Assembly (NCBI GenBank): GCA_017559825.1
Contig: JAFYQR010000130.1
Coordinates: 1 to 64,000, forward strand
Direction: 5' to 3'
Length of the DNA stretch: 64,000 nt
Source of the DNA: Thermoguttaceae bacterium
Lineage (GTDB): Bacteria; Planctomycetota; Planctomycetia; Pirellulales; Thermoguttaceae
The position numbers and the translations under genes were made by a program. Position 1 is the first letter of the stretch; each line of letters opens with the position of its first letter. Under the pieces are notes generated by a model. It saw only the letters and a list, made by a program, of their open reading frames with translations. It was not told where the DNA came from and made no database searches. Shown here in pieces: positions 43,530-59,361 of this stretch.

Positions 43530-44099
43530 ATGCGTCCCAACGAGAAAGAGCGAGCGATGTTGGATCGCAAAACCTACGAAGCGTTGTCGGAAGCGCTGAA
43601 AAATCGCGAAGTTTCGTGCCGTTCGATCGCGCGTTCCTTCGGCGTCAGCCACACGTTGGCCCTCAAAATTCGCCGCCAAACCGGTCGCGTTCGAGTTTTC
43701 GACGCTCCGGAAATCGCCGCGCCGCTCGGCGAGTACCTCCGCTGTCCCCGTTGCGGAGCGAAAACCCGCCTCCCTTGCGTTTACTGCGCCGTCGTCGACG
43801 AGTTAAAACGCAAACCGCCCAAGCGAGAGCGTTCGGAAACCGAACTCGCCGACGAACGCGGCCCGGCGTTCCTCGGCGACGAGTTCGCGATCGACCTGCC
43901 GCCCGACGAGTACGCCCGTTACCAAGAGGTGCGCGCTTGGCGAGAACGAAGTCAAAACCCGCGTTTCGAAGTCGTTCCGGACGATTGGCCTTGGCGCGAC
44001 GAAACGTTCGTCGACGCGGAATCGCCCCGTCCCGCGTCCGCCGTCGAGACGATCTCGACGCCCGCCGTTCGCCGCCGCCCGACCCCGGTTCTCGTTTAA
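43530..44099 (+). CDS. HTH/zinc-ribbon protein at the head of the cassette
   Basis: 189 residues. Residues about 14-52 look like a helix-turn-helix (REVSCRSIARSFGVSHTLAL). A compact zinc-ribbon, Cys72, 75, 83 and 86 (CPRCGAKTRLPCVYC), follows. The rest is charged and Pro-rich and probably disordered. It is a likely DNA-binding regulator or packaging-related protein of the cassette. The start could also be the ATG at 43557 (GAGAAAGAG upstream); the ATG at 43530 is chosen only because it keeps the longer frame. I do not recognise a named family. Confidence 0.65.
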   Translation: MRPNEKERAMLDRKTYEALSEALKNREVSCRSIARSFGVSHTLALKIRRQTGRVRVFDAPEIAAPLGEYLRCPRCGAKTRLPCVYCAVVDELKRKPPKRERSETELADERGPAFLGDEFAIDLPPDEYARYQEVRAWRERSQNPRFEVVPDDWPWRDETFVDAESPRPASAVETISTPAVRRRPTPVLV

Positions 44100-44138
44100 C
44101 CGCCGTCTTTTCATCCTTTAACGCCTTTAATTTTAACA

Positions 44139-44858
44139 ATGAAAACGCAATCCGCCCCCTTTTTTCCTCCGTCCGGCGCGTTCGCCGACGCCGTTCAATC
44201 GTCGCAAAACGCGCCGCCTTACTATATTCCGTTCGAACGCGGGCGTTTTTTATTGCGCGACGCCGACCTTTTGCTCGTTCGAAGCGGCGGCGTCGTTCCT
44301 TGGCTCGGACGCGGCGTCCACGGCCACGTCGCGACGGTCGCTCGCTGGAACTCCGAACCGTTCGTTTTGGAAACGCGTCCCGGCGGCGGACGAGCCGTTC
44401 CGCTCGACGCCTTTTTGCGGCGCAACCCTCGACGCGTCGACGTTTTCCGCCCGAATCCGGACGGTCGTTGGCCGGAATATCGCCCGGAACGATGCGTCGC
44501 GTTCCTGCGTCGCGCTCTTTCGGCCCGCTACGGTTGGCGGAGCGTTTTCGCCGCGGCCTTCGCTCGCCTTCCCGGAACTCGCCGCCTTTGGGGCGCCGCT
44601 TATTTTGACGACGCCAAGTTCGCCGACGCAACCTCCCGGTTTCCCGAAACTTGCGCAAGCGAATGCCTCGACGCCGTTCGCCGCCTCGACCGCGAGCGTC
44701 CCCGACGCGCTTCGTTTCACTGCGCCGAGGCGCGAGCGCTCGCCGACCGTTGGGCGGGCGTCGACGCGATTCCGTTTTTGAGCGACCGTTTCGTCGAACC
44801 CGCCGACTTGGCTCGCAGTCCGTTTTACCGTTATCAATTTACCTTCGCCGCCCTTTAA
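44139..44858 (+). CDS. Permuted papain-like (YiiX/NlpC-P60-type) cysteine hydrolase
   Basis: 239 residues. The pattern DADLLLVRSGGVVPW, then HGHVATVARW and FVLETRPGGGRAVPLD, fits the circularly permuted NlpC/P60 group, in which the catalytic His (HGHVAT) comes first and Cys comes late. Candidate Cys positions are in ETCASECLDAV and in FHCAEARALAD. No signal peptide is visible. In a phage setting a cell-wall or acyl-chain hydrolase acting in entry or exit is the obvious inference, and it could stand in for a lysin. It sits 40 bases after the HTH gene. Confidence 0.6.
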   Translation: MKTQSAPFFPPSGAFADAVQSSQNAPPYYIPFERGRFLLRDADLLLVRSGGVVPWLGRGVHGHVATVARWNSEPFVLETRPGGGRAVPLDAFLRRNPRRVDVFRPNPDGRWPEYRPERCVAFLRRALSARYGWRSVFAAAFARLPGTRRLWGAAYFDDAKFADATSRFPETCASECLDAVRRLDRERPRRASFHCAEARALADRWAGVDAIPFLSDRFVEPADLARSPFYRYQFTFAAL

Positions 44859-44918
44859 CCTGCCCAATCGCGCGCCGTTATCCCTATTCGTCTCTTCCGT
44901 TTTTAAGGAAAACCGCTC

Positions 44919-46028
44919 ATGAATCGAATTGTTCGCCGCCGTCTTTTGTTAGCGCTCGCCCTCGGCTTGTCGGCGACGTCAACGCTCTCCGTTTCCTTTG
45001 CGCCGTCTCGTTTTACGACGCCGCCCAACGCCGCGTCGCGCCGCCTTTCCGAAACGGCTTTCGGTTCCGCTCCGCTTCCCAACCGTTTTCTCGACGCGCC
45101 GCCGTTCGACGATTTTTTGGGAGCGTCCGTTTGCCCTAACGGCTCGTGCTCGTTGGACTTCGGAACGCCGACGCCTTCCTTTCAACCGGCGCCGCAGGGA
45201 GCCGTTCGCGCCGTCGCTCGAATTTACAACGCTTACGAAGAGACGACGACGCTCGATCCGGCGCTCGGCCCAACGCGACGCAAGATCGTCGAAAAGGGAA
45301 GCGGCGCGTTCGTCGCCGACTCGCACGGAACGCGCTACGTTTTGACGGCGGCGCACATTTTTCGCGACGGGCGAGGCCAAATTTCGGCGCAGTCGGTCGA
45401 CGGTCGCGTCTTTTCCGCTTCGCTCGTTTTAGCGTCGGAGGAATGCGACGTCGCGCTCCTGCGAGTCGACCTTCCCGCCGACGTGCCGACGCTGACCGTT
45501 TCGGCGTCTTGGCCGCGCCAAGGCGAAACGGTTTGGCGCGCCGGATTCGGCCCGGACGAAACGCTCAAAGAACTTTCCGGAACCGTTAAAGGCTACGTTA
45601 AAACCGATCGTTGTTCTACTTACGAAACGCTCAAAATCGACGGTCCCGCTCGCCAAGGCGACTCCGGCGGCCCCGTTTACAACGCGGACGGCGAAATCGT
45701 CGGCGTCGTTTGGGGCACCGACGGTCAAGACGCTTACGCAACCTATTGCGGTCGCGTTCTTAAGACCCTTTGCGACTATTCGCCGACGTTCGATCCCGAC
45801 GCGTCGCTCCCGGAGCCGCCGACGCTCCCCGACCCCCCGATTCCCTCGCAACTCGCCGATTCGCAACCGATTAAAAACGATCCGTTCGCCGTCGAAGAGC
45901 CGCCGCTCGCGCCCGTCGAGTCGGTCGAATCGAAAACGCTCCTCGCCGATTTTTGCAACGCCGCGGTCGCGCTAACCGTCGGTTTCGCGTTCGGCTACTG
46001 CGGTTTTTTCGCTTCAAAGCGAGTCTAA
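44919..46028 (+). CDS. Secreted, membrane-tethered trypsin-like serine protease
   Basis: 369 residues. A signal peptide (RRRLLLALALGLSATSTLSVSFA) is followed by a trypsin-like domain at about 95-275 with the triad His146 (LTAAHIF), Asp177 (ECDVALLRV) and Ser249 (GDSGGPV), all intact. A Pro-rich linker and one C-terminal membrane segment (FCNAAVALTVGFAFGYCGFF) follow. A tethered periplasmic protease is unusual in a phage head module. It could process envelope proteins, act in release or immunity, or be a host gene caught in the cassette. AAGGAAAA precedes the ATG. Confidence 0.85.
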   Translation: MNRIVRRRLLLALALGLSATSTLSVSFAPSRFTTPPNAASRRLSETAFGSAPLPNRFLDAPPFDDFLGASVCPNGSCSLDFGTPTPSFQPAPQGAVRAVARIYNAYEETTTLDPALGPTRRKIVEKGSGAFVADSHGTRYVLTAAHIFRDGRGQISAQSVDGRVFSASLVLASEECDVALLRVDLPADVPTLTVSASWPRQGETVWRAGFGPDETLKELSGTVKGYVKTDRCSTYETLKIDGPARQGDSGGPVYNADGEIVGVVWGTDGQDAYATYCGRVLKTLCDYSPTFDPDASLPEPPTLPDPPIPSQLADSQPIKNDPFAVEEPPLAPVESVESKTLLADFCNAAVALTVGFAFGYCGFFASKRV

Positions 46029-46089
46029 CCCCTTATTTTTCGTCGTTTAATCTCGCTTATTTTTCCGCCGTTTACGAAAGGATTTCCCG

Positions 46090-46350
46090 ATGGAATGGAA
46101 CGCGTCGACCGGCTTGGCGCTCGGTATCGTTTCGACCTTAACCCCTTGGTTTTTCGCGATTCACTCGAAATTAGCGACTCTTGCCGAACAAACGTCGCAA
46201 GGCGCGAAAAAAATCGACGCGCTCGCCGCCGCAACCGCGCGAGCGTTCGAAAAGCTCTATGAATTTGAGAAGCGTTTGAACGCGCAAGACGTTCGTTTAC
46301 AAAACGTTGGCAAGCAAACTAGCGAACTCGCCGAAACGCTCGCCGACTAA
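46090..46350 (+). CDS. Small membrane/coiled-coil protein (holin-like or spanin-like)
   Basis: 86 residues: one hydrophobic segment at about 7-25 (TGLALGIVSTLTPWFFAIH) and then a helical coiled-coil stretch to the end (LAEQTSQGAKKIDALAAATA). This layout is common in phage proteins near lysis or packaging genes, but a single helix is little evidence. A ribosome-binding site GAAAGGA precedes the ATG. Function unknown. Confidence 0.6.
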   Translation: MEWNASTGLALGIVSTLTPWFFAIHSKLATLAEQTSQGAKKIDALAAATARAFEKLYEFEKRLNAQDVRLQNVGKQTSELAETLAD

Positions 46351-46374
46351 CCGACCGCCGCCTAGGAGAAAAAA

Positions 46375-46929
46375 ATGCGCAACCGCGTCAAAGAATTGCG
46401 TTTCGTCAAAGCTTCCGACTTAATCCCCAACGCCGACAACTGGCGTTCGCATCCCAAGCGCCAACGCGACTTAATGAAGAGCGTTCTGCAAACGATCGGT
46501 TACGCCGACGCGCTGATCGTTCGCGAAACCGAGGACGGCTCGCTCGAACTGATCGACGGACATCTCCGCGCCGACGTGTCGCCGAACGCTGAAGTTCCGG
46601 CGCTTGTGGTCGACCTTAACGCTAAGGAGGCCAAGGAGTTGCTTCTCGTTCACGACCCGATCGGCGCGATGGCCGAGCGCGACGACGAGGCGGTTTCGCG
46701 CCTTCTCGCCGACTTCGAAGCGACGAACGAAACGCTCGAACGTTTTATCGTCGAAGAGTTTAAGCTCGACGTCGACGCCGAAAACGACTCGCCGCCGCGC
46801 CGCGAAAAGTCGCTTTCGGTTCCGACTCTCTTCCAAATCGTCGTCGAGTGCGAAGACGAAGACGACCAGCGCGCCTGTTTCGACGAGCTGACGCGCTCCG
46901 GACGCAAGTGTCGCGTCGTCAACCTTTAA
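46375..46929 (+). CDS. ParB/Srx-like nuclease-fold protein
   Basis: 184 residues. The N-terminal 110 residues are a ParB-like domain: ASDLIPNADNWRSHPKRQ, then SVLQTIGYADALIVRE and the motif ELIDGHLRADV, the equivalent of the GxxR/DGHxR nucleotide-binding box of ParB N-terminal domains. The remainder is acidic and helical with a short terminal beta-rich domain (LFQIVVECEDEDDQ) like those in phage ParB proteins. Phage members often sit beside DNA-modification genes or the terminase; here the next gene is the ABC-GNAT fusion, 48 bases on. ParB-like domains can hydrolyse CTP or cut DNA; which applies here is unknown. AGGAG lies ahead of the ATG. Confidence 0.8.
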   Translation: MRNRVKELRFVKASDLIPNADNWRSHPKRQRDLMKSVLQTIGYADALIVRETEDGSLELIDGHLRADVSPNAEVPALVVDLNAKEAKELLLVHDPIGAMAERDDEAVSRLLADFEATNETLERFIVEEFKLDVDAENDSPPRREKSLSVPTLFQIVVECEDEDDQRACFDELTRSGRKCRVVNL

Positions 46930-46977
46930 TCGTTTATTCGCAACGTTTCTTCCCCGCATAAATAAGGAAAAATCGCG

Positions 46978-48105
46978 TTGGAAAACACGTCTCAAACGCA
47001 AACGATCCGCGTCGCGGCGCCGGTTTACGACTCGTTCCGAGTCCGCTCGATCGCCGGCATGTTCGACGCGCCGATCGAGACCAAAACGGAAAAAGTCATT
47101 ACGTTCGAACCTCCGCCGCCGCTCGACGAAGATTGGCGAATCGGCCTAATCGTCGGTCCGTCCGGAAGCGGCAAAAGCACCGTCGCTCAAACGATTTACG
47201 CGTCGGAAATTTTTCGCGGAGGCGATTGGGCGCCCGACAAAGCGACGATCGACAATTTCGGCGAGCGCCCGACGAAAGAAATCGTTCGCGCCCTAACGAC
47301 GGTCGGCTTCGCGTCGCCGCCGAGTTGGGTTCAACCGTTCGCGACGCTTAGCAACGGCGAGAAATTCCGCTGCGAACTCGCTCGAGCGCTCCTCGACGCG
47401 CCGACGGAACTCGTTGTCTTCGACGAGTTTACAAGCGTCGTCGACCGAACGGTCGCGAAAACGGCGTCCGCCGCGATTTCCGACGCGCTTCGAAACGGCT
47501 TCCTGAAAAAACGGTTCGTAGCGCTGTCGTGCCACTACGACGTCGTCGATTGGCTCGCGCCCGATTGGGTTCTCAACACGGCGACCGGCAAAACGACAAG
47601 GAGGCGTCTTCGGCGACCGCGAATCGAACTGGAAATCGTTCGCGGCGATAAAAAAAGTTGGCCCGTCTTTGCGAAACATCATTATTTGAGCGCGACGCTG
47701 CATCCCTCGGCGCAATGTTATTTAGCGTTTTGGGACGAAACGCCGGTCGCTTTTTGCGCGACGCTTCCGCTCTTCGGAGCCGTAGGACGGCGCCGCGTAA
47801 CGCGACTCGTCGTTCTCCCCGATTACCAAGGTTTAGGAATCGGAACGGCGGTCTTGGAAGCGGTCGGCGACCTCCATCGCGAACGGTCGCTGCGCTATCA
47901 TATCGCGTCGAGCCATCCGTCGATCATAAACCACTGCAAACGTTCGCCTTACTGGCGCGTCGTTTCAACGTCGAAATTCGGACGACAAGGCAAAATCGAC
48001 GGAAACCGACGAAGCGGCTCGCTCGGCCGCGCTATCGTTTCGTTCGAGTATTTAGGGCGCGACGACGAATCTTCGCCGTCTTCGCAACCCGCCGCGTTAC
48101 CATAA
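46978..48105 (+). CDS. ABC-type ATPase fused to a GNAT acyltransferase domain
   Basis: 375 residues from a TTG at 46978 with AAGGA nine bases upstream. Residues about 50-205 form a soluble ABC ATPase: Walker A GPSGSGKST (60-68), signature LSNGE (124-128), Walker B LVVFDEF (145-151), and switch His (ALSCHYDVVDW, 182-192). Residues about 218-345 form a GNAT domain (FAKHHYLSATLHPS, RLVVLPDYQGLGIG with the acyl-CoA loop at 284-289, and SSHPSIINHC). The GNAT half resembles phage Mom-like proteins, which modify adenine in DNA, more than ribosomal or aminoglycoside acetyltransferases. That resemblance is my reading and untested. The ATPase lacks membrane partners. The preceding ParB-like gene is the natural partner. 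Confidence 0.75.
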   Translation: MENTSQTQTIRVAAPVYDSFRVRSIAGMFDAPIETKTEKVITFEPPPPLDEDWRIGLIVGPSGSGKSTVAQTIYASEIFRGGDWAPDKATIDNFGERPTKEIVRALTTVGFASPPSWVQPFATLSNGEKFRCELARALLDAPTELVVFDEFTSVVDRTVAKTASAAISDALRNGFLKKRFVALSCHYDVVDWLAPDWVLNTATGKTTRRRLRRPRIELEIVRGDKKSWPVFAKHHYLSATLHPSAQCYLAFWDETPVAFCATLPLFGAVGRRRVTRLVVLPDYQGLGIGTAVLEAVGDLHRERSLRYHIASSHPSIINHCKRSPYWRVVSTSKFGRQGKIDGNRRSGSLGRAIVSFEYLGRDDESSPSSQPAALP

Positions 48106-48123
48106 CTTATCGAAACATCAATT

Positions 48124-48570
48124 ATGTCCCCCAAACGAAAAACGAAAAAAAAAGCGCCGCTCGACGCGACCGACAAAAACGGCGTGCTCGCGGTCGTCGC
48201 GCTCGGCGCCTCGCTCGAAACGGCCGCCCGCTACTTCAAGCGAGAACCGCTCGAAATCGTCGAAGCGCTGACCGACGACGCCGACTTCCAACGCGACTTC
48301 AAGCAAGCGCAAGAACAAGCGGAAGTATTTTTCCTCAAACAAGTTAAAACCGCCGCTCTCGACGCGAAAAACTGGCGCGCCGCGACGTGGTCGCTCGAAC
48401 GTCTGCGCCCGGATCGTTACGGTCGAATCAAAGCGAACGCGATTTCCGTCGAGGAAATCAAAGCGCTCTTCGCCCGCCTCCGCGAGACGCTCGCCGCCGA
48501 GTTCGCCGACGAAGACGAGCGGCGCAAAATCGAAGAAAAACTCGACGCGCTCCTCGCGACGCTTTCCTAA
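48124..48570 (+). CDS. Small terminase subunit candidate
   Basis: 148 residues. A basic start (KRKTKKK) precedes a helix-turn-helix-like region (VVALGASLETAARYFKREP), a helix with FLKQVKTAALDAKNWRAA and the phrase LERLRPDRYG that is common in small terminases, and a C-terminal helical segment (AEFADEDERRKIEEKL). It would bind the packaging site and stimulate the large terminase. It starts 18 bases after the ABC-GNAT gene and ends 50 bases before the large terminase, the standard order. Confidence 0.75.
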   Translation: MSPKRKTKKKAPLDATDKNGVLAVVALGASLETAARYFKREPLEIVEALTDDADFQRDFKQAQEQAEVFFLKQVKTAALDAKNWRAATWSLERLRPDRYGRIKANAISVEEIKALFARLRETLAAEFADEDERRKIEEKLDALLATLS

Positions 48571-48620
48571 CGCTTTAATTAACGTTATTTACCGTTTTAT
48601 TTATCGAAAGGTTCGCTCCG

Positions 48621-50198
48621 ATGCAAACGCGCCGCCTCCTCGAAATCGCTCGCGAATCGCTGCGAGAACCGCCGCCGTCCGACGCGACGCGCCTCGTTTT
48701 TCGCGATCTTATCGAATGGTCGCAACACTTTTTGCCGCGTTACTTTACGCTTCCCGTTTCGAAAGCGCACCGCTGGTTCGCCGAGACGGTCGAAGCGAAC
48801 GCGACGCGCCGAGGCGTCAAGGTTAATTTTCTCGCCCCGCGCGGCGCCGCCAAGTCGACGCTCGGAGCGTTGGCGTATCCGCTTCGCGAAGCGCTCGAGG
48901 GCCGCGAGCCTTACATTTGGATCGTCTCCGACGTTCGCTCGCAAGCGCAAAACCATCTAAACAACATTGTTAAAGAACTTGAAGAGAACCCGCTTATTCG
49001 AGCGCGTTACCTCGAACCGCGCAAAATCCGTTGGGCGCAACGCTCGAACCGCGTCGTTTTTAGTTCCGGTGTCGCGATCGAGTGTTACGGAACCGGCCAA
49101 AAACTGCGCGGACGTCGGGAACGCGAACGCCGCCCGTCGCTGATTATCTGCGACGACTTGCAAAACGACGACCACATCGTTTCGAAAACGCGACGCGAAC
49201 GCTCTCGCCGCTGGTTTTTCGGCGCGCTCCTAAAAGCGGGCGACGTCAAGACTAACGTCGTTTCATTGGCAACCGCGCTTCACCCGGAGGCGCTCGGCTG
49301 GGAACTCCTGTCGAATCCGGCTTGGATCGGCAAAGCGTTCCCCGCGATCCTCCGTTTTCCCGACGCGGTCGAACTTTGGAACGAGTGGAAGACGATTTAT
49401 CTCGCTTCCGACGCCGACGCGTCGCGCCGAGCCGACGAATTTTATCGCGCTCATTTCGACGAAATGAACGCCGGCGCCGAGGTTCTCTGGCCGGAAAACG
49501 AGTCGTTGCTGGACTTAATGAAAATGCGCGTCGAAAGCGGCGAGAAGGTTTTTCTCCGCGAAAAGCAAAACTCGCCGGTCGCGACGGAGTACAACGAGTT
49601 TCCCGACGAGTATTTCGACGACGCTTGCGCCGACTCGCTTCCGCAAACTATCGTCGCGTCGGCGCTCGCGCTCGATCCGAGCAAAGGACGCGACGCTTCG
49701 ACCGGCGACTACTCGGCGTTCGTTTTCGCCGCGCTCGCCGGAGACGGAACGATTTTTATCGACGCAAAGCTCGGGCGTTTCCCGACTTGCGAACTCGTCG
49801 ACGAAGCGTTCGAACTTTGGCGACGCTTCCGCCCCGACGTTTTCGCCGTCGAAACAAACCAATTTCAAGAGCTTCTCCGCGACGAATTAGAGCGAACCTT
49901 CCGCGAGCGAGGCGTTCCCGACGCGGCGATTTTTCCCATCGAAAACCGCCTCAACAAAAACGTTAGAATCCGACGCTTAGGCGCGCCGCTCGCGAAACGC
50001 AAACTTCGTTTCCTCCGCGACAATCCATCGAACGAACTCCTAATCGAGCAGCTGCGAGCGTTCCCCTGCGGAGCGCACGACGACGGCCCGGACGCGCTCG
50101 AAATGGCGCTGCGCGTCTTGACTTCGCTAACGGAAACCCCCGCCGTCGAAACCTTTAGCCAAGGAGATTTCGGCGCGATTCGCCCCGATTTTTTTTAA
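48621..50198 (+). CDS. Phage terminase large subunit
   Basis: 525 residues, normal for the family. The N-terminal packaging ATPase has Walker A APRGAAKST (72-80), Walker B LIICDDLQ, and the coupling motif near VVSLATALH. The C-terminal nuclease domain is of RNase H fold with acidic residues in ALDPSKGRDASTGDYS, FAVETNQF and HDDGPDALE, all present. It cuts concatemers and drives DNA into the procapsid. AAAGG precedes the ATG. The frame is intact, arguing that packaging is or was recently functional. Confidence 0.93.
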   Translation: MQTRRLLEIARESLREPPPSDATRLVFRDLIEWSQHFLPRYFTLPVSKAHRWFAETVEANATRRGVKVNFLAPRGAAKSTLGALAYPLREALEGREPYIWIVSDVRSQAQNHLNNIVKELEENPLIRARYLEPRKIRWAQRSNRVVFSSGVAIECYGTGQKLRGRRERERRPSLIICDDLQNDDHIVSKTRRERSRRWFFGALLKAGDVKTNVVSLATALHPEALGWELLSNPAWIGKAFPAILRFPDAVELWNEWKTIYLASDADASRRADEFYRAHFDEMNAGAEVLWPENESLLDLMKMRVESGEKVFLREKQNSPVATEYNEFPDEYFDDACADSLPQTIVASALALDPSKGRDASTGDYSAFVFAALAGDGTIFIDAKLGRFPTCELVDEAFELWRRFRPDVFAVETNQFQELLRDELERTFRERGVPDAAIFPIENRLNKNVRIRRLGAPLAKRKLRFLRDNPSNELLIEQLRAFPCGAHDDGPDALEMALRVLTSLTETPAVETFSQGDFGAIRPDFF

Positions 50199-50222
50199 CC
50201 CTTCGCCCCCAAGGACCCCGTT

Positions 50223-51545
50223 ATGCCCGCATCCCGCTCCTTCAACGGCGTTTTGTCCGCCGACGCGGTCGTTTCGACGCTCGAGTCGCGGTTCGCCTTC
50301 GACGATCCTAATTCTTTTGTTTTCGGCGATTTATCGTATTCGCTCGCCAGTTCGACCGATTCGGAAATGTTCAACGAGGCGGCGCGTCGTATTTCTCGCG
50401 ACCTTTGCTTAAACAACCCCTTCGCTATCAACGCTTTAGAAAATCGAATCAACTACGTCGTCGGCTTCGGGCACAAGTACCAAGCGACCGCTCGCGACGA
50501 AAGCGACGCCGAGCTCGCCCGAAAAACGCAGGACGTCGTCGTCGATTTTATCGTCGAAAACGATTGGTTTAAGCGTCAACAGGAGATTTTGCGCCGCTAC
50601 GACCGCGACGGCGAGGTTTTTCTCCGCTTTTTCCGCGACGAACGCGGGAAAACGGTCGTTCGCTTCGTCGAACCGGAGCAAGTCAAGACGCCGCAAGGGC
50701 CTAACGGTCGCCGCAGTCGTTGCGGAGTCGTCGCCGACAAACGCGACGCCGAGCGGATTCTCGGCTACTGGATCGACGGCTCGTTCGTCGACGCCGCGAA
50801 AATTCAACACCGTAAAGCGAACGTCGACGCGACCGCAAAACGAGGCGTTCCCTTGCTTTATCCGGTGCGCGAAAACCTGCGCCGCGCCGAAAAACTCCTC
50901 CGCAATATGAGCGTCGTCGCCGAAATTCAGTCGTCGATCGCCTTGATTCGCAAGCACGCCAACGGAACGCAAGAAAGCGTTCGTCGCTTTGTTCGCGATA
51001 AAAACCGAGAAGCCGACGGCATGCCGCCGCGAGAACGCTTTCAACCGGGCACCATCGTCGACGCGACCGCAGGGGTCGACTACGAATTTCCCATCGCCGG
51101 AATCGACGCGACTCGCTACGTTCAGATTTTACAGGCCGAACTGCGAGCGATCGCCGCGCGGCTCACGCTTCCGGAGTTCATGCTCAGCTCCGACGCCTCG
51201 AACGCCAACTACGCCTCGACGAGCGTCGCGGAAGGCCCCGCCGTTCGCAACTTCGAACGCATGCAACACGAGCTCGTTAAAGAAGATATGAAAATTGTTT
51301 GGCGCGTCGTCGAAGACGCCGTTCGACGCGGCGAACTCCCGGAAGACGTCGGCAAGCGCGTCTCGATCCAAGCGATTCCGCCGTCGTTGGCGACGCGCGA
51401 CCGCCTCAACGAAGCGAAAGCCGACGAAATTTTGATCGCCGCCGGCGTTATTTCGCCGCAAACCGCCGCGATGCGCCACGGTCTCGATCCGAATCGCGAG
51501 CGAGCGCTCCAACGTCAAGCTCGTCAAGAATTTACCGCCGACTAA
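50223..51545 (+). CDS. Phage portal protein
   Basis: 440 residues. The features expected of a portal are seen: an N-terminal alpha-helical stretch, NPFAINALENRINYVVGFG near residue 65, the wing region (FLRFFRDERGKTVVRFVEPEQV), and a clip/stem region (FMLSSDASNANYASTSVAEGP). It would form the ring at the capsid vertex for DNA entry and exit. AAGGA lies ahead of the ATG. It follows the terminase by 24 bases. Confidence 0.88.
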   Translation: MPASRSFNGVLSADAVVSTLESRFAFDDPNSFVFGDLSYSLASSTDSEMFNEAARRISRDLCLNNPFAINALENRINYVVGFGHKYQATARDESDAELARKTQDVVVDFIVENDWFKRQQEILRRYDRDGEVFLRFFRDERGKTVVRFVEPEQVKTPQGPNGRRSRCGVVADKRDAERILGYWIDGSFVDAAKIQHRKANVDATAKRGVPLLYPVRENLRRAEKLLRNMSVVAEIQSSIALIRKHANGTQESVRRFVRDKNREADGMPPRERFQPGTIVDATAGVDYEFPIAGIDATRYVQILQAELRAIAARLTLPEFMLSSDASNANYASTSVAEGPAVRNFERMQHELVKEDMKIVWRVVEDAVRRGELPEDVGKRVSIQAIPPSLATRDRLNEAKADEILIAAGVISPQTAAMRHGLDPNRERALQRQARQEFTAD

Positions 51546-51597
51546 CCTCGACTTTTTCCCGTTTCGTTTCCTCGCCCTCCATCTACGAAAGCGCGTT

Positions 51598-52488
51598 ATG
51601 AACAACGAAAACCTTTTGGAATTTTTCGATTTGTCGTCGCCGCGACGCAAAATCGACAAGGAAAACGGCGTCGTTTCCGACGTCAAAATTTTAGGCGTTA
51701 AAAGCCGCAACAACAGGATTTATCCGATCGAAACGCTGCGCGCCGCCGCTCCGCTTTACGAAAACGCCAAAGTCAACGTCAACCATCCGGACGGCTCGCC
51801 GACCGAATCGCGCAAGTATCAAGATCGCGTCGGTTCGATTAAGAACGTAACGCTCCGGGAAAACGGGCTTTACGGCGAGTTCCACTTCAATCCGAAACAT
51901 CCGCTCGCCGAGCAGATGCTTTGGGACGCGGAACGGGCGCCGGAAAACTTCGGTTTTTCGCACAACGTCGAAGCGGTCGTTCGACTCGAAAACGGCGCGC
52001 AAGTCGTCGATAAAATCGTTCGCGTGCGCAGCGTCGACCTTGTCGCGGATCCGGCGACGACGTCCGGGCTCTTCGAGTCCGCGCCGATAAGCGTCGATTC
52101 CGCAAGCGTTTACCCGACCTCGGCCGCAACGACGGCGACGCTCGAAAGCGCCGATTCCCGCCTTCAAACGCTTAAAGAAGAACGCGACGCCGCGACACGC
52201 CGTTTCGCCGTCGCCCGTCTTTTGCTCGAAAAACTCGCGTCGGAACGCGACGGCGACGCCGTTCGATTGGCGCTCGGCGCGGCGAGTTTTCTCGAACTCG
52301 CTTTTGAATCTCGCGACGTCGAATCGGCGCGACGCCTTATCGACGAACAACTTGCGCTCGTTCGCGAAGCGTTGAATCTTTCGACGCTCAAAACGCCGAG
52401 CGCGGAGGAGCCGGTCGTTTCGAAATCGCGCTCCGACGTCGACAACGAAGAAAACAACGAAAGTTTTGCGGAGGCGATTCTTTATTAA
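51598..52488 (+). CDS. Head maturation protease/scaffold-like protein
   Basis: 296 residues. The N-terminal 165 residues match a prohead protease: SRNNRIYPIETL, the catalytic-His segment VNVNHPDG (His63), GFSHNVEAV, and the conserved Ser strand VRSVDLVADPATT (Ser145). The C-terminal half is charged and helical (LQTLKEERDAATRRFAVARL) and acidic at the end, fitting an internal scaffold fused to the protease, as in many phages. It would trim scaffold or capsid during maturation. Confidence 0.8.
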   Translation: MNNENLLEFFDLSSPRRKIDKENGVVSDVKILGVKSRNNRIYPIETLRAAAPLYENAKVNVNHPDGSPTESRKYQDRVGSIKNVTLRENGLYGEFHFNPKHPLAEQMLWDAERAPENFGFSHNVEAVVRLENGAQVVDKIVRVRSVDLVADPATTSGLFESAPISVDSASVYPTSAATTATLESADSRLQTLKEERDAATRRFAVARLLLEKLASERDGDAVRLALGAASFLELAFESRDVESARRLIDEQLALVREALNLSTLKTPSAEEPVVSKSRSDVDNEENNESFAEAILY

Positions 52489-52572
52489 CGCCCGCCGAGC
52501 AAGCCGCAACCTTTTGTTTGTCAACGCTTAACCATTTTTCCAGTTCTTTACTTTCAACAGAAAGGCATTTTG

Positions 52573-53733
52573 ATGGCGACTATCAAATATCGCGAATTGA
52601 AACGACGCTACGACCTCGACGGCGCGCAAAAAACGGTTGCGCACCTCTCGGAAGCTCTTGCGAAAAAAGAACTTCGCGCCGACGACTTTAGCATCCGCGA
52701 CTTGGCCGAAGCGCTCGTTCCGAACGGCTCGCAATGGGTGCGCGAACTGAACCCGAGCGTCGGTTCGCTAACCGAATCGTTCCAAGGCGTCGACGTTTCC
52801 GCGTTCGCGACCATCGCCGGTCAACTGATTTATAGCCGCATTTTGGAAGCGTATCAATCGGAAGTCTTTTGTCTTTCGAAACTTATCTCGACGATTCCGA
52901 CGCGGCTCAACGGCGAAAAAATTCCCGGCTTCTCGTCGATCGCCGACGAAGCGGTCGAAATCGAGCCCGGCTCGGCGTATCCGAACGTCGGGTTTAGCGA
53001 AGATTACATCGAGACGCCGGAAACGACGAAACGCGGCCTCATCGTTCCGGTTACGCGCGAAGCCGTTTTCTTCGACCGCACGCACGTCGTCTTGGCGCGA
53101 GCGGGCGAAGTCGGCGAAACGCTCGCGCTCAATAAAGAAAAACGCGTTGCCGACATGATTCTCGGCGTTTCCAATCTGTATCAATGGAACGGAACCTCGT
53201 ACTCGACCTACTACGCCGCCGGCTCGTCCTCGCCGTGGGTCAACCTCCTTTCCGGCAACCCTTTAGAAACGGTCGAGAACGTCGACGCGGCCGAAAACGT
53301 TTTAGCGAGCGCGCTCGATCCGAACACCGGCGAACCGATTCTCTCCGAAGCGACCGCCGCGCTTGTTTCGCCCGCTAAACGTCGAATCGCCAACGTGTTG
53401 CTGCGCGGCTCGAATCTGCGCTGCGCCGACGGAACGCTCAGTTCGATTCCGAATCCGTTCGAGAAACTCGCGGTCGTTTCGAGCCGTATCGCCCGTCGCC
53501 AACTCGCGAAAGCGAACGCCTCCGCTTCCGCCGAAACCCTCGACAATTACTGGTTTTACGGCGACTTTAAAAAGGCGTTCGCGTACATGGAAAACTGGCC
53601 GATCACCGTTTCGGTCTCTTCGGCGGGCAGCGAAGCCGATTTCAGCCAAGACGTCGTCGCCCGCTTCAAGGCGAGCGAACGCGGAACCCCGGCCGTTTTG
53701 AACCCGCGTTGCGTCGTCAAGTGCGTCGGCTGA
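52573..53733 (+). CDS. Major capsid protein candidate
   Basis: 386 residues from the ATG at 52573 (AAAGG upstream; a TTG at 52570 is also in frame). An N-terminal helical part (YRELKRRYDLDGAQKTV) is followed by a mixed region with FSEDYIETPETTKRGLIVPVT. Position after the protease and length argue for an HK97-fold capsid protein of the Mu-like or similar groups, but I can see no motif that proves it. No delta-domain cleavage is obvious. It is the largest structural protein of the cassette. Confidence 0.75.
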   Translation: MATIKYRELKRRYDLDGAQKTVAHLSEALAKKELRADDFSIRDLAEALVPNGSQWVRELNPSVGSLTESFQGVDVSAFATIAGQLIYSRILEAYQSEVFCLSKLISTIPTRLNGEKIPGFSSIADEAVEIEPGSAYPNVGFSEDYIETPETTKRGLIVPVTREAVFFDRTHVVLARAGEVGETLALNKEKRVADMILGVSNLYQWNGTSYSTYYAAGSSSPWVNLLSGNPLETVENVDAAENVLASALDPNTGEPILSEATAALVSPAKRRIANVLLRGSNLRCADGTLSSIPNPFEKLAVVSSRIARRQLAKANASASAETLDNYWFYGDFKKAFAYMENWPITVSVSSAGSEADFSQDVVARFKASERGTPAVLNPRCVVKCVG

Positions 53734-53815
53734 TTTTTTAGCCGCCTCGTTTCGACCTTTTCCTCGTATTGCCGCCGTCTTATCGTCTTAATCGACGGCG
53801 TTTAGAAAGGACTTT

Positions 53816-54040
53816 ATGGAAGATTCGCTCGACGTCGGCGCGATCTTAGAAATCAAACGCCGAACCTTGGCGACGCTCGCCGACTTGGCGCGTTCGCCCA
53901 AACCGACGTGCAAAATCGACGGCGTCGTCGTCTCTTGGCGCGAGTACCAAGAGTCTTTGCAACAAACGATCGACTGGTGCGACCGACGACTTAGCGCCTT
54001 CAACGCGTTTGAGTCGCGTTCTCGCGGCGTCGTCGATTGA
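53816..54040 (+). CDS. Small head-associated protein
   Basis: 74 residues, with no membrane segment. The order CKIDGVVVSWREYQESL then QTIDWCDRRLSAF is characteristic of small proteins that follow capsid genes in several prophages, but no function is assigned to them. AAAGGACTTT precedes the ATG. A strong terminator comes right after. Confidence 0.65.
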   Translation: MEDSLDVGAILEIKRRTLATLADLARSPKPTCKIDGVVVSWREYQESLQQTIDWCDRRLSAFNAFESRSRGVVD

Positions 54041-54065
54041 CGCCGTTCGCCGCCGTTTCTTTTGA

Positions 54066-54127
54066 GTCGAGCGCTCGCGTTCTCGTTTTCGACGCGCCGC
54101 GAACGCTCGACGTTTTTTCTTTTTTTT
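54066..54127 (+). terminator. Intrinsic terminator/attenuator within the head operon
   Basis: Arms GTCGAGCG and CGCTCGAC (54066-54073 and 54104-54111) are followed by TTTTTTCTTTTTTTT. It lies between the small head protein gene and the connector candidate, so it may reduce expression of the last three genes relative to the capsid gene. Confidence 0.7.
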
Positions 54128-54144
54128 CACTTTAAGGATTCGCC

Positions 54145-54801
54145 ATGTCCTTTATCGACAACTTTTACGACTTCGTCGATTTAACCGAACGCGTCGACGT
54201 TCTTCAAAACCGCGACGGCGACGTTTCAACTTTTGAACTCGACCGAGCCGGCCTCTTTTCGAGCCGCTTTTCCAACGGCGGAGCCAACGACGTTCCGCCG
54301 CGCATCGTCGGCGTTTGGCGTCTGCCGCTCGACGAAAACACGCGCTCGATTCGCCGCGGCGACAAAATCCGCGACGCCGAGGCGCGTATTTGGATCGTAA
54401 GCGAAACGTCGCCGTCGCAAACGCTTCAACTTCTTACCTGTCAATGTTTTTGCGAACAGCTTTTCCCAGGCCCCTCCGATTTTATCAACGCGTCGCGCCC
54501 CTTGCGTTCCGGCGGCTTCGAAACGATCGCGACGCAAGCGCCCGCGCTCGTCAAGCGTCGAACGACGTCGAGCCTTCAAAACGCCGCCGCTTTTCCGGCC
54601 TTAACGCTCGTCGAAGAAATCGAATTTTGGATTCGAATCGACGTTCCGCTCCGTCCGAACGACGTCGTCGCAACGAGCGACGGAAACCGTTACGAAACGA
54701 CGAGTTACCGTTCGCCCGACGACGTTTCCGATTGGGGCGTTCTCGTCGCGAGACGACTCGGCGGCGCCGACGATTTTTGGCGCTCGCCGAAACCAAATTA
54801 A
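54145..54801 (+). CDS. Head-tail connector-like protein (uncertain)
   Basis: 218 residues. The beta-rich N-terminus (ERVDVLQNRDGDVSTFEL, then DKIRDAEARIWIVSE) is reminiscent of head-tail adaptor proteins that follow capsid genes in many phages, but the match is weak and the usual length is near 110. The second half (IRIDVPLRPNDVVATSDG) is of similar style, so the protein could be two copies of an adaptor fold. AAGGA precedes the ATG. Genuine coding is clear from the frame and context; function is uncertain. Confidence 0.55.
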   Translation: MSFIDNFYDFVDLTERVDVLQNRDGDVSTFELDRAGLFSSRFSNGGANDVPPRIVGVWRLPLDENTRSIRRGDKIRDAEARIWIVSETSPSQTLQLLTCQCFCEQLFPGPSDFINASRPLRSGGFETIATQAPALVKRRTTSSLQNAAAFPALTLVEEIEFWIRIDVPLRPNDVVATSDGNRYETTSYRSPDDVSDWGVLVARRLGGADDFWRSPKPN

Positions 54802-54906
54802 AAACGACGGCGTTTGCTTCGCCGCAAACAACCAAACGCGTTAATCGCCGTCTTTTCAGCGTTTAACTTTCATTACATTCGCATCCGCGCTTTTCGAGGC
54901 AACATC

Positions 54907-55833
54907 ATGGCGATTCAAATTCAAGAGCTGCCCGGCTCGCCGCAAGAAAAATACTCGCTCGACTCTTTCTCCGCAACTCGAACGTTCATCGTGCCTTGGG
55001 AGCAACGCGACGCGTTCGCTCGTTATTTTCTCGGCGACCGGCTTTACGCCTGCGAGTCGTTGACCCCGTCCGACGACGAAGACGAATCGCTCGTTCCGCC
55101 GTCGTCCGGCGCGCCGATTTCCGGGCCGACGACGCGGCTCGCATATCCCGGTAAACCGGGGGTTTACGTCAGCCAAATCGCGTTCGAACCGTTTGAGCCG
55201 AACTCGCTTGACGTCTCGAAAATCGCTCGGCCCGCGTCGACGCTCGGCGAATACGGCTCGTTCGCCAAAGCGACCGTGTCTTACCGCGCCGAAACGACTT
55301 CCGTCGACCGCGTTAATTCGCCGCTCGTTGATTCCGGCACGAGTCTTACGTATAAGATGGTCGCTTGCGGGGAGTCGTTTCCGCTTTCGACGCGCGGCTG
55401 GCGTTGGCGCAACGACGCGACGGCGTCGGTCTCGGAAGATTTGCAACTCGTCAAACGCGTTCCGACGATCGAGCATCAACTCGTTTGGTCGAACGTCGTA
55501 AACCCGCCTTGGGAAACGATTAGCGCAATACAAGGCACGGTCAATTCCGACCGTTTTCTCGATTACGCGCCCGGCACGCTCCTCTTCGAAGGCGCCGAGG
55601 CGAACAAAATTTTCAACGGCGAAATCGACGCGGGCGCCGTCGCGTACACTTGGCAGATTCGTTTTCTCTTCCGCGAAAAACGAATCGAGGCGGGCGGAAC
55701 CTACGGCTGGAACGACTTTTACCGCGAGTCGACGGGAACTTGGGAACGCCTCGTCGACGCCGCCGGGCAACCGCTTTACCGTTCCGCCAATCACGCCGCG
55801 CTTTTCGTCCAATCGCAAACCGTTTCCAATTAA
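54907..55833 (+). CDS. Unassigned structural protein of the cassette
   Basis: 308 residues from the ATG at 54907; an upstream in-frame start at 54814 would add 31 residues with no ribosome-binding site. The sequence is rich in beta-forming and aromatic residues (YPGKPGVYVSQIAFEP, RGWRWRNDATASVSED, RIEAGGTYGWNDFYRE). I do not recognise a family. In this position a tail-tube, neck or capsid decoration protein would be expected. Confidence 0.55.
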   Translation: MAIQIQELPGSPQEKYSLDSFSATRTFIVPWEQRDAFARYFLGDRLYACESLTPSDDEDESLVPPSSGAPISGPTTRLAYPGKPGVYVSQIAFEPFEPNSLDVSKIARPASTLGEYGSFAKATVSYRAETTSVDRVNSPLVDSGTSLTYKMVACGESFPLSTRGWRWRNDATASVSEDLQLVKRVPTIEHQLVWSNVVNPPWETISAIQGTVNSDRFLDYAPGTLLFEGAEANKIFNGEIDAGAVAYTWQIRFLFREKRIEAGGTYGWNDFYRESTGTWERLVDAAGQPLYRSANHAALFVQSQTVSN

Positions 55834-55887
55834 TAAGTTAAACGCTTGTCGCCGTTTTGTTTATTTTTTAAGCGTCGGAGGCTTAAT

Positions 55888-56613
55888 ATGTCGACTATCT
55901 CTTTAGAAAGCGCGACTTCCGGTTTCACTTCGCGCAACGTTCCGTTTCATCGCGTCGACGCGAACGGCCCTTGGGCGTTCGAGCAAGACGGGGCGTCGTT
56001 TCGCCTTGCCGAGCCGCGAACGTTGGAAATTAGCGTTTTCCAAGTCGCGCGAGCGCCCGAATTTCTCGCCTTTACTCGCGACGGCGCAACGTTTTACGAA
56101 CCGACTCTTAGTTTCGAAGCCGCGCCGGTTTACACGCCGTTTACCGAAATCGCGGTCGGTTCCGCCCAACCGACGCGACGCGAAAATTTACGTCGCGCCG
56201 CCGATTTGACTGAATCGGTTCGCCGCCGCGTTTACGCCCCGACGTTTCTCGAAAGATTAAACGTCGAACAAACGTTGACGTCAAACAACTTGCCGTTAGC
56301 GTTTTACGCGCCGTATCGCGTCGGCGACCGATTGAACGCGTTTTGGAATCGAACGAGCGGGCGTTGGGAAGTCGTCGCGCCGCCGGAATTTAACGTCGTT
56401 CGGTTTCAACTCTCTTCCGCGTTAACGCCCGGCTCGACCGCGACCGCCGACGCGCTTTACTTCGACGCGACAACGCAAACGTTTGTCGACGGCGGACTTA
56501 AAATCGCCGTCGCCGATTTTCTCGGGCGTTTTCAAGGAGCGGTCGGGAAGCGCGGTTACGCTCGACGGTTCGCCGACCGCGACTCTTGGGAAATCTTTGC
56601 GCTTGACGCTTAA
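55888..56613 (+). CDS. Last unassigned protein of the cassette
   Basis: 241 residues from the ATG at 55888 (GGAGG eight bases upstream). A beta-rich region (FHRVDANGPWAFEQDG, FLAFTRDGATFYEPTL) and a C-terminal part (SGRWEVVAPPEFNVVRF, ending FALDA) show no known motif. The closing part, with ATTQTFVDGG, could be a receptor-binding or decoration domain. Reading ends in the host terminator and there are no tail genes beyond. Confidence 0.5.
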   Translation: MSTISLESATSGFTSRNVPFHRVDANGPWAFEQDGASFRLAEPRTLEISVFQVARAPEFLAFTRDGATFYEPTLSFEAAPVYTPFTEIAVGSAQPTRRENLRRAADLTESVRRRVYAPTFLERLNVEQTLTSNNLPLAFYAPYRVGDRLNAFWNRTSGRWEVVAPPEFNVVRFQLSSALTPGSTATADALYFDATTQTFVDGGLKIAVADFLGRFQGAVGKRGYARRFADRDSWEIFALDA

Positions 56614-56733: not shown

Positions 56734-59361
56734 TCAGCCGAGTTTTTCGGCGAGGAACGCCTTCGCGGCTTCGAGCGCGGCCGGGACGCCTTCCGGCTTT
56801 TTACCGCCCGCTTGCGCCATATCCGGACGACCGCCGCCGCCCCCTTGGACGTGCGACGCGACCGCTTTGATCCACTCGACGGCGCTGAATTTGCGCTCGA
56901 CCAAGTTGCGCGTCGCGGCGGCGATCAACGAAACTTTGCCGCCCTTCGAGTCGACGTTCGCGAAGAAGATCGCGGCGTTTTCCGTCTTGCGGCGGATTTG
57001 ATCGATCGCGTCGCGCAGGCCGTTCGCGTCGGCGTCGGTCGCGACGAGCGTCACAAACTTCGTTCCGGCAATCTCTTCCGCTTTCGAAATCAGTTCGTCG
57101 ACCGAAACGGCGTCTTTCTTCGACGCGGCTTCGAGTTCCTTGCGGAGCTTTTTCGTCGTCGCGAGGAGTTCTTCGACGCGTCCGACGATTTCGCTCGACG
57201 GAACGCGCAACGTCCCGGCCAACGTCGTTTCGATCGCGTCGGCTTGCGCGATTTTCGCGATCGCTTCGGCCCCGGTAACGGCGACGATGCGGCGCGTCCC
57301 GGCCCCGACGCTTTCTTCGGCGACGATCTTGCAGTAACCGACTTGCGCCGCGTTCTTCAAGTGCGTTCCGCCGCAGAACTCCAACGACGGCCCCATCTTA
57401 ACGACGCGAACAATGTCCGGGTATTTTTCGCCAAAGAGCATCATCGCGCCGAGTTTGCGAGCGTCTTCGAGCGGCGTTTCTTCGCAGGAAACCGGGTGCG
57501 CTTCCAAAATCGCTTCGTTGACGTCGCGTTCGATTTGAACGAGCGTTTCGCGATCGAGCGCCTTGTGGTTCGTGAAGTCGAAACGCAAAACGTCGGCGTC
57601 GACCTTCGAACCTTGTTGTTCGGCGTGGCTTCCGAGGCGAGCGCGGAGCGCGGCGTGCAGGAGGTGCGTCGCCGTGTGAGCGCGGCTAATCGCGGCGCGA
57701 CGTTTTTTGTCGACGGCGGCGAACGCGGCTTGGCCCGCTTCGAGCGTTCCGGCGGTCAGCTTGCCGACGCAAACGAGGAATTCGCCGTCGTAAACGGTCG
57801 TTTCGACGACGAAACGCGCGCCGTTCGCCGTCGTGATTTCGCCGGAGTCGCCGACTTGACCGCCCTTTTCGCCGTAGAACGGCGTTTTGTCAAGGACGAC
57901 GCGAAGCGCTTTTCCGTCGGCTTCGGCGGTCGCTTGCTCGACGAGCGTTTCGCCGTCGAGAATCGCGAGGACTTTCGCTTCCGTTTCGAGCGTTTCGTAA
58001 CCGACGAATTCCGGCGGGTTGTTCGACTTTTTAATCCCTTCGAGCGGGTCGCGCTTGAAGAGGAGGTTCTTTTCCGCGCTCCCGGAAAGTTCGCCGTGGC
58101 GTTCCATTTCTTTTTCGAACCCGGCCCAGTCGAAGCCGTATTTGCGTTCGCCGGCGAGCGTTTCGAAGAGTTCCGGCGGGAAGCCGTACGTTTGATACAT
58201 TTCAAACGCTTCGGAACCTTGAACTTCGGCGCGTTTTTCTTCTTCCATCGTCTTGAAGACGGAGTCCAAACGACGCAAACCGCCGTCGATGTTCGCCATA
58301 AAGTGTTCTTCTTCCGACGCGACGACGCCTTGGACGCGTTCGATCGTTTCGGAAAGTTCCGGATACGGAACCTTCATCAGGTCGGCGACGACCGGAACGA
58401 GGTGGAAGAGGAACGGTTTTTTCATCCCCATTTGAACGCCGTCGAGAACCGCGCGACGGAGCAAGCGGCGAATGACGTATTTTTCTTCTTTCGGGCCCGG
58501 ATAGACGTTTTCGTGAATCGCGAACGAGCAAGCGCGAATGTGGTCGGCGATGCGGCGCAGACGGCGGCCGTTTTCGTTCGTCAAATCTTGATCGTCGTAT
58601 TTTTGCGAGCAGACTTCCGCCGCCGCGTCGACCAACGGACGAAGCGAGTCGATGTGGAAGTTCGTTTCGACGCCTTGCAGAACGGACGTAACGCGTTCGA
58701 GGCCCATCCCGGTGTCGATGTTTTTGCTCGGAAGCGGACGCAAGTTGTTCGGCGGGTTGCCGACGCGGTTGAATTGCGTAAAGACGAGGTTCCAAATTTC
58801 GACTTCGCCTTGCGGCGTTTTGTGGTAAATTTCGGAACACGGGCCGCAAACGCCGTCCGGGCCTTCGCTCGGGGCGGACGCCGGCCAGAAGTTTTCGTCT
58901 TCGTCGAGATATTGCAGTTTTTCGGCCGGAAGTTTGATTTCTTCGAGCCAAATCTTCGCGGCTTCATGGTCGTCTTTATAGACGGTCGCGGAGAGCATCG
59001 CCGGGTCGATCCCGAGCCATTTCTTGTCGGTCAGGAACTCCCAAGCCCAGTGGATCGCTTCGCGCTTGAAGTAGTCGCCGAAGCTGAAGTTCCCGAGCAT
59101 TTCGAAGAACGTGTGGTGGAACGCGGTGCGTCCGACGTTGTCGATGTCGCCGGTGCGGAGGCACTTTTGGCAGGTGGTGGCGCGGGTGTAGTCGAGCTTG
59201 CAACGCCCGAGAAAGTGGTCTTTGAATTGGTTCATCCCGGCCGGCGTGAAGAGAACCGACGGGTCCCAACGCGGAACGAGGACGTCGCTCGGACGGCGAA
59301 CGCAACCTTTGGATTCAAAGAACGTTAAGTACTTTTCGCGAATTTCGTTTGTCGTGAACAT
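56734..59361 (-). CDS. alaS: Alanine-tRNA ligase
   Basis: 875 residues, full length. Class II catalytic core (residues 1-about 240): FFESKGCVRRPSDVLVPRWDPS, then RTAFHHTFFEMLGNFSFGDYF as motif 2 region and DTGMGLERV as motif 3. The editing domain has the zinc-type HTATHLLHAALR and CGGTH motifs, and the C-Ala domain follows with GGGGRPDMAQAGG. It charges tRNA-Ala and clears mischarged Ser/Gly. The start is the ATG at 59361. It lies 111 bases after proS on the same strand, so the two synthetase genes are probably one operon. Confidence 0.97.
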   Translation of the reverse strand: MFTTNEIREKYLTFFESKGCVRRPSDVLVPRWDPSVLFTPAGMNQFKDHFLGRCKLDYTRATTCQKCLRTGDIDNVGRTAFHHTFFEMLGNFSFGDYFKREAIHWAWEFLTDKKWLGIDPAMLSATVYKDDHEAAKIWLEEIKLPAEKLQYLDEDENFWPASAPSEGPDGVCGPCSEIYHKTPQGEVEIWNLVFTQFNRVGNPPNNLRPLPSKNIDTGMGLERVTSVLQGVETNFHIDSLRPLVDAAAEVCSQKYDDQDLTNENGRRLRRIADHIRACSFAIHENVYPGPKEEKYVIRRLLRRAVLDGVQMGMKKPFLFHLVPVVADLMKVPYPELSETIERVQGVVASEEEHFMANIDGGLRRLDSVFKTMEEEKRAEVQGSEAFEMYQTYGFPPELFETLAGERKYGFDWAGFEKEMERHGELSGSAEKNLLFKRDPLEGIKKSNNPPEFVGYETLETEAKVLAILDGETLVEQATAEADGKALRVVLDKTPFYGEKGGQVGDSGEITTANGARFVVETTVYDGEFLVCVGKLTAGTLEAGQAAFAAVDKKRRAAISRAHTATHLLHAALRARLGSHAEQQGSKVDADVLRFDFTNHKALDRETLVQIERDVNEAILEAHPVSCEETPLEDARKLGAMMLFGEKYPDIVRVVKMGPSLEFCGGTHLKNAAQVGYCKIVAEESVGAGTRRIVAVTGAEAIAKIAQADAIETTLAGTLRVPSSEIVGRVEELLATTKKLRKELEAASKKDAVSVDELISKAEEIAGTKFVTLVATDADANGLRDAIDQIRRKTENAAIFFANVDSKGGKVSLIAAATRNLVERKFSAVEWIKAVASHVQGGGGGRPDMAQAGGKKPEGVPAALEAAKAFLAEKLG

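Follow-up and report, generated by a model that had tools for sequence, protein, structure and literature searches.

A phage-derived head-and-packaging gene cassette, probably domesticated, in planctomycetes of the order Pirellulales

Bacteria may retain one module of a phage after losing the rest, as in the tailocins (e.g. monocin), where the tail was kept and the head was lost. Among gene transfer agents (GTAs), those that have been characterised are mostly tailed (PMC9662315), and the capsid-forming satellites known as cfPICIs are mobile elements with their own capsid or head and packaging genes and without tail genes (PMC11389934). For planctomycetes, the literature searched held nothing relevant on GTAs or domesticated prophages, the closest item being a Zavarzinella prophage TerL (PMC7947584), and no report of a GTA from the Pirellulales was found in it. 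Here we describe a gene cassette of this order which, on balance, we take to be the domesticated head-and-packaging cluster of an ancient siphovirus-like phage, GTA-like and with a shrinking tail.

The window, the whole stretch of 64,000 nucleotides that was analysed, comes from a planctomycete MAG that totals 3.68 Mb over 240 contigs and whose nearest named relatives are gut Thermoguttaceae MAGs. The cassette (43,530-56,613) consists of 15 intact, co-directional open reading frames (ORFs) on the plus strand, and is real and intact. As a sequence-only reading of this DNA had proposed, host genes follow directly on both sides: abc-F (40,876-43,062, minus strand) ends 468 bp ahead of the cassette and alaS (56,734-59,361, minus strand) lies 121 bp past its end, the identity of both being confirmed. 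The same reading had described terminases, portal, protease and a capsid candidate in the standard order and with intact frames, which the family matches bear out, and had seen no tape measure, integrase or repressor. In line with this, family searches among the 15 ORFs recognised no integrase, repressor of a known type, replication gene or tape-measure gene. Scans of the cassette for promoters and terminators stayed at chance level, and searches for terminal or flanking repeats around it returned only chance-like matches of GC-rich sequence.

The head genes, accompanied by accessory genes, run in the order TerS, TerL, lambda-type portal, maturation protease, HK97-type capsid protein and two connectors. 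The terminase small subunit TerS (g7, 48,124-48,570, plus strand like all genes below) matches phrog_4102 at 6e-6, and the large subunit TerL (g8, 48,621-50,198) matches phrog_38 at 6e-76 as well as TIGR01630, with every near-invariant column retained, including the P-loop, acidic ATPase and nuclease Asp positions. These are followed by a portal protein of the lambda family (g9, 50,223-51,545; PF05136, 1.4e-27), by a prohead maturation protease with a C-terminal scaffold-like part (g10, 51,598-52,488; weak match to phrog_207), whose His, Ser-His and Asp motifs are near-invariant in an alignment of 103 rows, and by the major capsid protein (g11, 52,570-53,733; PF25209 Phage_capsid_4, 4e-14). 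Across TerL, portal and protease, the window cassette has lost none of the near-invariant positions. Behind the capsid gene lies a conserved connector-like protein of 74 aa (g12, 53,816-54,040), for which the family search gave no match and which has homologues at the same place in 84 sources, a tailed phage contig among them. Next to it is a head-tail adaptor/stopper-like protein (g13, 54,145-54,801) of a family (F7) that was also found in 84 sources; its phage homologue matches the head-tail adaptor phrog_1059 (E 8.5e-4). By their TerL, portal and capsid families, the head genes derive from a caudoviricete. Searches of 50,697 phage records returned no match for the capsid protein or for g14 (see below), and for TerL only distant ones, none of the best listed exceeding 35% identity. 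That the cassette would package DNA is a well-supported prediction from TerS, TerL and the portal.

Six genes precede the terminase. The first (g1, 43,530-44,099), relatives of which stand ahead of the cassette in 17 sources, encodes a helix-turn-helix and zinc-ribbon-like protein that is a possible regulator, the zinc-ribbon matches being weak and below the cut-off. The second (g2, 44,139-44,858) gave no Pfam match; its His and Cys, conserved as H76 and C208 of the frame in an alignment of 19 homologues, suggest a candidate permuted papain/NlpC-like hydrolase, a family assignment made from motifs. The third (g3, 44,919-46,028) is a trypsin-like serine protease (PF13365, 6e-20) that retains the catalytic His, Asp and Ser positions and ends in a C-terminal hydrophobic segment. 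These two peptidases had been thought unusual companions of a head cassette, a view that has to be given up since relatives of both precede the cassette in other genera too. Weak family matches were obtained for g4 (46,090-46,350; 86 aa), which combines a single N-terminal membrane segment with a coiled coil. This feature of g4 and the retained His and Cys of the g2 candidate hydrolase make the earlier statement that lysis genes are missing uncertain. The remaining two genes encode a phage-type ParB-like protein (g5, 46,375-46,929; phrog_620, 2e-12) and a phage-type ABC ATPase-GNAT fusion (g6, 46,978-48,105; phrog_11143, 2e-99), the latter with matches in 54 phage records.

The cassette had also been read as having no tail, and this is correct for terminator, tube and tape measure: the intergenic gaps between protease, capsid gene, g12, g13 and g14 measure 82-105 bp, too short for a decoration gene or for any gene of terminator, tube or tape measure. 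It does not extend to the last two genes, a tail-tip-like protein (g14, 54,904-55,833) and a tail-tip-associated protein (g15, 55,888-56,613), the latter of a family that also stands behind g14 in relatives and the tailed phage. Both have homologues directly behind the tape measure of a tailed relative, an uncultured phage represented by a 35.7 kb IMG/VR contig (IMGVR_UViG_3300029258_000634; L076/L097), whose tape measure of 691 aa matches several tape-measure PHROGs (to 3e-17). By position g14 and g15 are thus tail-tip-side genes, and a tail tip may survive in the window cassette. The phage contig shares the gene order of the cassette and has homologues of its TerL, portal, protease, capsid protein (42%), g12, g13, g14 and g15, together with decoration, terminator and tube genes homologous to those of cassette relatives. 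Unlike the cassette, it carries two tail-chaperone-like genes in addition to the tape measure and, by our reading of the sequences, appears to have replication-type genes; counterparts of g1, g2 and g4-g7 were not found on it. The AlphaFold model of g14 (pLDDT 80) matches solely uncharacterised phage proteins (E 6e-14). Against the PDB nothing was significant, baseplate- and tube-like proteins appearing at Z about 5 mixed with RNA polymerase chains, and the tip role therefore rests on synteny with the phage contig.

We then compared the tail genes of relatives with profiles run against 80 named loci as well as further genomes, and assigned a tail class where the sequence continued for at least 7.5 kb past the capsid gene. 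Of these loci, 11 have adaptor, terminator, tube and tip, 13 have adaptor, terminator and tip with the tube not detected, and 14 have the adaptor only, with decoration; the window's genus has adaptor and tip without decoration, terminator or tube (genes absent from a locus could sit elsewhere in the genome, the cassette being scattered in some genomes). Across the relatives, tail genes are thus lost step by step. The model of the tube family (F13; pLDDT 83) matches the tubes of siphophage R4C, RcGTA and lambda in fold (E 3e-6 to 3e-4), and the terminator family matches tail-terminator PHROGs. A full prophage at the relatives' loci, which would make the cassette a chance deletion, was looked for; in none of the chromosomal relatives did the profile searches detect a homologue of the tape measure of the phage at the locus, and the gap between tube and tip genes is below 0.8 kb in 21 of the 22 loci that have both. 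The set of genes expected of a functional tailed prophage, with a tape measure, a tail, an integrase and genes for lysogeny, is absent from the window, and no relative's locus holds a full tape measure. In some genomes short ORFs lie between the tube and tip genes. Two of these, one in L135 (14,658-15,044; 128 aa) and one in G054, resemble the tape-measure C-terminus so closely that only 1 of 2000 shuffles did as well or better, and five other ORFs in the tube-tip gap failed this shuffle test; tentatively, the short ORFs may be miniature tape measures. Short tube-tip ORFs are also seen in L111 (13,745-13,954) and L130 (14,354-14,563), with conservation among L111, L112 and L130.

The cassette is widespread in one order. 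Searches for the portal succeeded in 38 of 60 relatives and those for the capsid gene in 36 of 59, mostly with one copy each, and in good-quality genomes the counts are 26/32 and 25/31. Carriers span about 20 families of the Pirellulales and include the cultured strains Botrimarina colliarenosi Pla108, Bythopirellula polymerisocia Pla144 and Aeoliella straminimaris. Among 294 genomes drawn evenly from the phylum, 33 matched, all within the window's class, and a scan of one genome per species gave 143 relatives, the 80 listed being planctomycetes throughout. Within the window's genus, species with near-identical alaS (98-100%) carry the cassette, and 13 species of a sister clade of the same genus (alaS 79-85%) are without portal, capsid gene and cassette-type TerL. 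This absence is most simply a loss, and it means that the cassette is dispensable. An empty-site test found no clean empty site, the alaS of the sister clade adjoining an orthologue of window positions 12,044-15,424. Relative to window positions 12,044-56,734, the sister clade (L229-L233) lacks some 41 kb, abc-F and the cassette among them, or has this DNA elsewhere.

Elsewhere in the order the arrangement varies: G041 and G034 have a scattered cassette, and G033/L171 and L144 a rearranged one. In the scattered cases (L038, L043, L080-L083), cassette genes with open frames are spread over roughly 40-65 kb among other genes. An apparent viral carrier in IMG/VR (L069, IMGVR_UViG_3300029305_011631) was rejected as a misfiling, because the contig holds alaS together with the cassette and is a piece of planctomycete chromosome. 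A distant element (family f16; L088, L087, L063), with a capsid protein about 35% identical and tail-type genes, is present in several genomes and may be a prophage or a tailed GTA.

A cassette tree built from portal, capsid and TerL was compared with the alaS tree. The two have 7 of 25 splits in common, whereas none of 2000 label shuffles gave more than 3. In the cassette tree, every sampled member of the window's family belongs to a single clade. Identity of the two topologies is nevertheless rejected by the AU test in both directions, which means that there has been some exchange or that the model is in error. In G026, of another genus of the family (g8; alaS 60% identical), the cassette is convergent to alaS with one ORF between them; the alaS-adjacent position is common to these two genera, and the chromosomal position differs among many others. 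In the capsid tree, no free viral contig groups within the chromosomal clade, where only the long-branched G230 is of unsure placement. The shared splits, the shared alaS neighbourhood and the order-wide presence indicate that the cassette was mainly inherited vertically with its host and in large part follows host phylogeny, although congruence is imperfect. The same data bear on whether separate prophages were instead acquired repeatedly, one lineage at a time, each losing its tail by decay. Such a history would explain the varied chromosomal positions, the scattered and rearranged copies (G041, G034, G033) and the failure of full congruence in the AU test, but it appears quite unlikely given the family-level clade, the alaS neighbourhood common to two genera, the exclusion of viral contigs from the chromosomal clade, the same front genes in many genera and the lack of a tailed prophage version among the clade's chromosomal relatives.

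Selection was assessed within the genus, where dN/dS is 0.115 for both the capsid gene and g14, 0.14 for TerL, 0.16 for TerS and 0.17 for the portal. The genes g13, g15, g3 and g10 evolve fast (0.35-0.44, the upper value for g13), and values for alaS, proS and abc-F are 0.03-0.10. Synonymous divergence of the cassette lies within the upper range of the neighbouring genes, and neither a stop nor a frameshift was seen in the genus orthologues. The head genes are thus under purifying selection, and the unconstrained evolution that the sequence-only reading had named as telling against its proposals was not found. Its remark on host-like codon use holds as a measurement (distance to host 0.09, within the host-subset limit of 0.11) and proves little, since prophage contigs of the same genome are equally host-like (0.055). 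A plain, functionless remnant of a decaying prophage would be expected to lose tail, integration and replication genes and to let some genes diverge fast; with frames that stay open in the orthologues of the genus, dN/dS values well under 1, carriers in about 20 families and no near-invariant residue lost, we regard this as extremely improbable, and for the head and packaging genes it is already contradicted by dN/dS and the retained residues.

The earlier suggestion of a satellite that borrows tails, taken here as one that packs its own DNA and uses the tails of a helper prophage as a cfPICI might, requires tail genes elsewhere in the genome. Two further contigs of the window genome do carry tape measures (C54, L239, and C194, L240; PF10145, 2e-45), and C194 has its own terminase and head-like genes; both are apparently ordinary prophages unrelated to the cassette, and could supply tails to a locus with head and packaging genes on the cfPICI plan (PMC11389934). 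TerL-like ORFs also occur on C187 and C214 of this genome. Against this reading, a tape measure over the family cut-off was absent from 15 of 16 related genomes, the sole match being G017 of the same genus, which likewise has two tape-measure contigs; the model responds in only 7 of 14 control genomes, missing tape measures in the other half, so that this absence, which includes the single-contig genomes G172, G059 and G041, is supporting evidence only. Furthermore, the integrase, regulation and replication genes of satellites were not recognised in the cassette, which abc-F and alaS flank; terminal repeats do not stand out, and g14 and g15 would be the cassette's own tip genes. Nor is the distribution mobile or patchy, being order-wide and largely vertical, with the capsid gene in 25 of 31 good-quality relatives and a largely congruent tree. 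The satellite reading is therefore poorly supported and very unlikely.

Taken together, the lack of a full prophage in relatives and the purifying selection on head genes support domestication, in the GTA-like or domesticated-capsid form that had been proposed; domestication itself is highly probable, and host use, perhaps in packing and passing on DNA, is suggested. Under our preferred reading, the cassette would have been held by the host lineage through much of Pirellulales history, passing mainly from mother to daughter cell. A host signal, perhaps acting via g1, would cause some cells to make heads, into which TerS and TerL would load DNA by way of the portal; this would most likely be the host's, given that there is no longer a phage genome for them to package. 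The protease would mature the capsid, g12 and g13 would close the portal and g14 and g15 would cap the vertex as a stub tip, with the front hydrolases g2 and g3 and perhaps g4 aiding release, so that the particle would act as a gene transfer agent nearly without a tail. Packaging and release in such a GTA-like manner has about an even chance. The bolder proposal, of an order-wide viriform in which the tail was miniaturised and then lost under selection, leaving a tube-less, DNA-filled head with a tip on the portal stopper that the host uses for DNA transfer or another task, is tentative and somewhat doubtful.

The absence from the sister clade, the AU rejection and the fast evolution of g13, g15, g3 and g10 count against a domesticated GTA-like cluster, and we know of no way in which a head without a tube could inject. 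The prevalence of tails among characterised GTAs (PMC9662315) also weighs against it. No tail would be needed if the heads remained inside or near the cell and stored DNA, sequestered DNA or protein, or interfered with incoming phages. This use would suit the strong constraint on the capsid, and also the 14 loci of one class and others that lack a tip, which retain just head, terminase, portal and connector genes, have no tail gene within 7.5 kb and are nonetheless intact; we consider it unlikely, though less so than the prophage and satellite readings, because the retained TerS, TerL and portal would mean that DNA is pumped through a phage-type vertex, and the window lineage keeps g14 and g15, g14 being as constrained as the capsid. 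If the preferred GTA-like reading is right, GTA-like domestication has occurred in a phylum without an earlier report in the literature searched, stages of tail reduction are preserved in living lineages, and the cultured carriers make the role of a tail-less head, in DNA movement or otherwise, directly testable.

Compared with described systems, the cassette is the mirror image of a tailocin, since here it is the head that was kept. With cfPICIs it shares its own head and packaging genes, adding the tip-like g14 and g15; cfPICIs are mobile satellites, whereas the cassette is without an integrase and largely vertical. It also resembles the viriforms RcGTA, BaGTA and BhGTA (PMC9662315): like them, the cassette is a head and packaging cluster of caudoviricete derivation that is fixed in host lineages, mostly single-copy and under purifying selection, with no self-replication or integration genes recognised in its 15 ORFs, and the tube protein of its relatives matches the RcGTA tube in fold. 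It differs in belonging to another phylum, in its reduction across the order and in lacking tube, terminator and tape measure. A GTA is expected to form a tailed, caudoviricete-like particle, yet the window leaves no room for terminator, tube or tape measure and relatives show no full tape measure; we therefore describe the cassette as GTA-like up to the neck and do not class it as a GTA.
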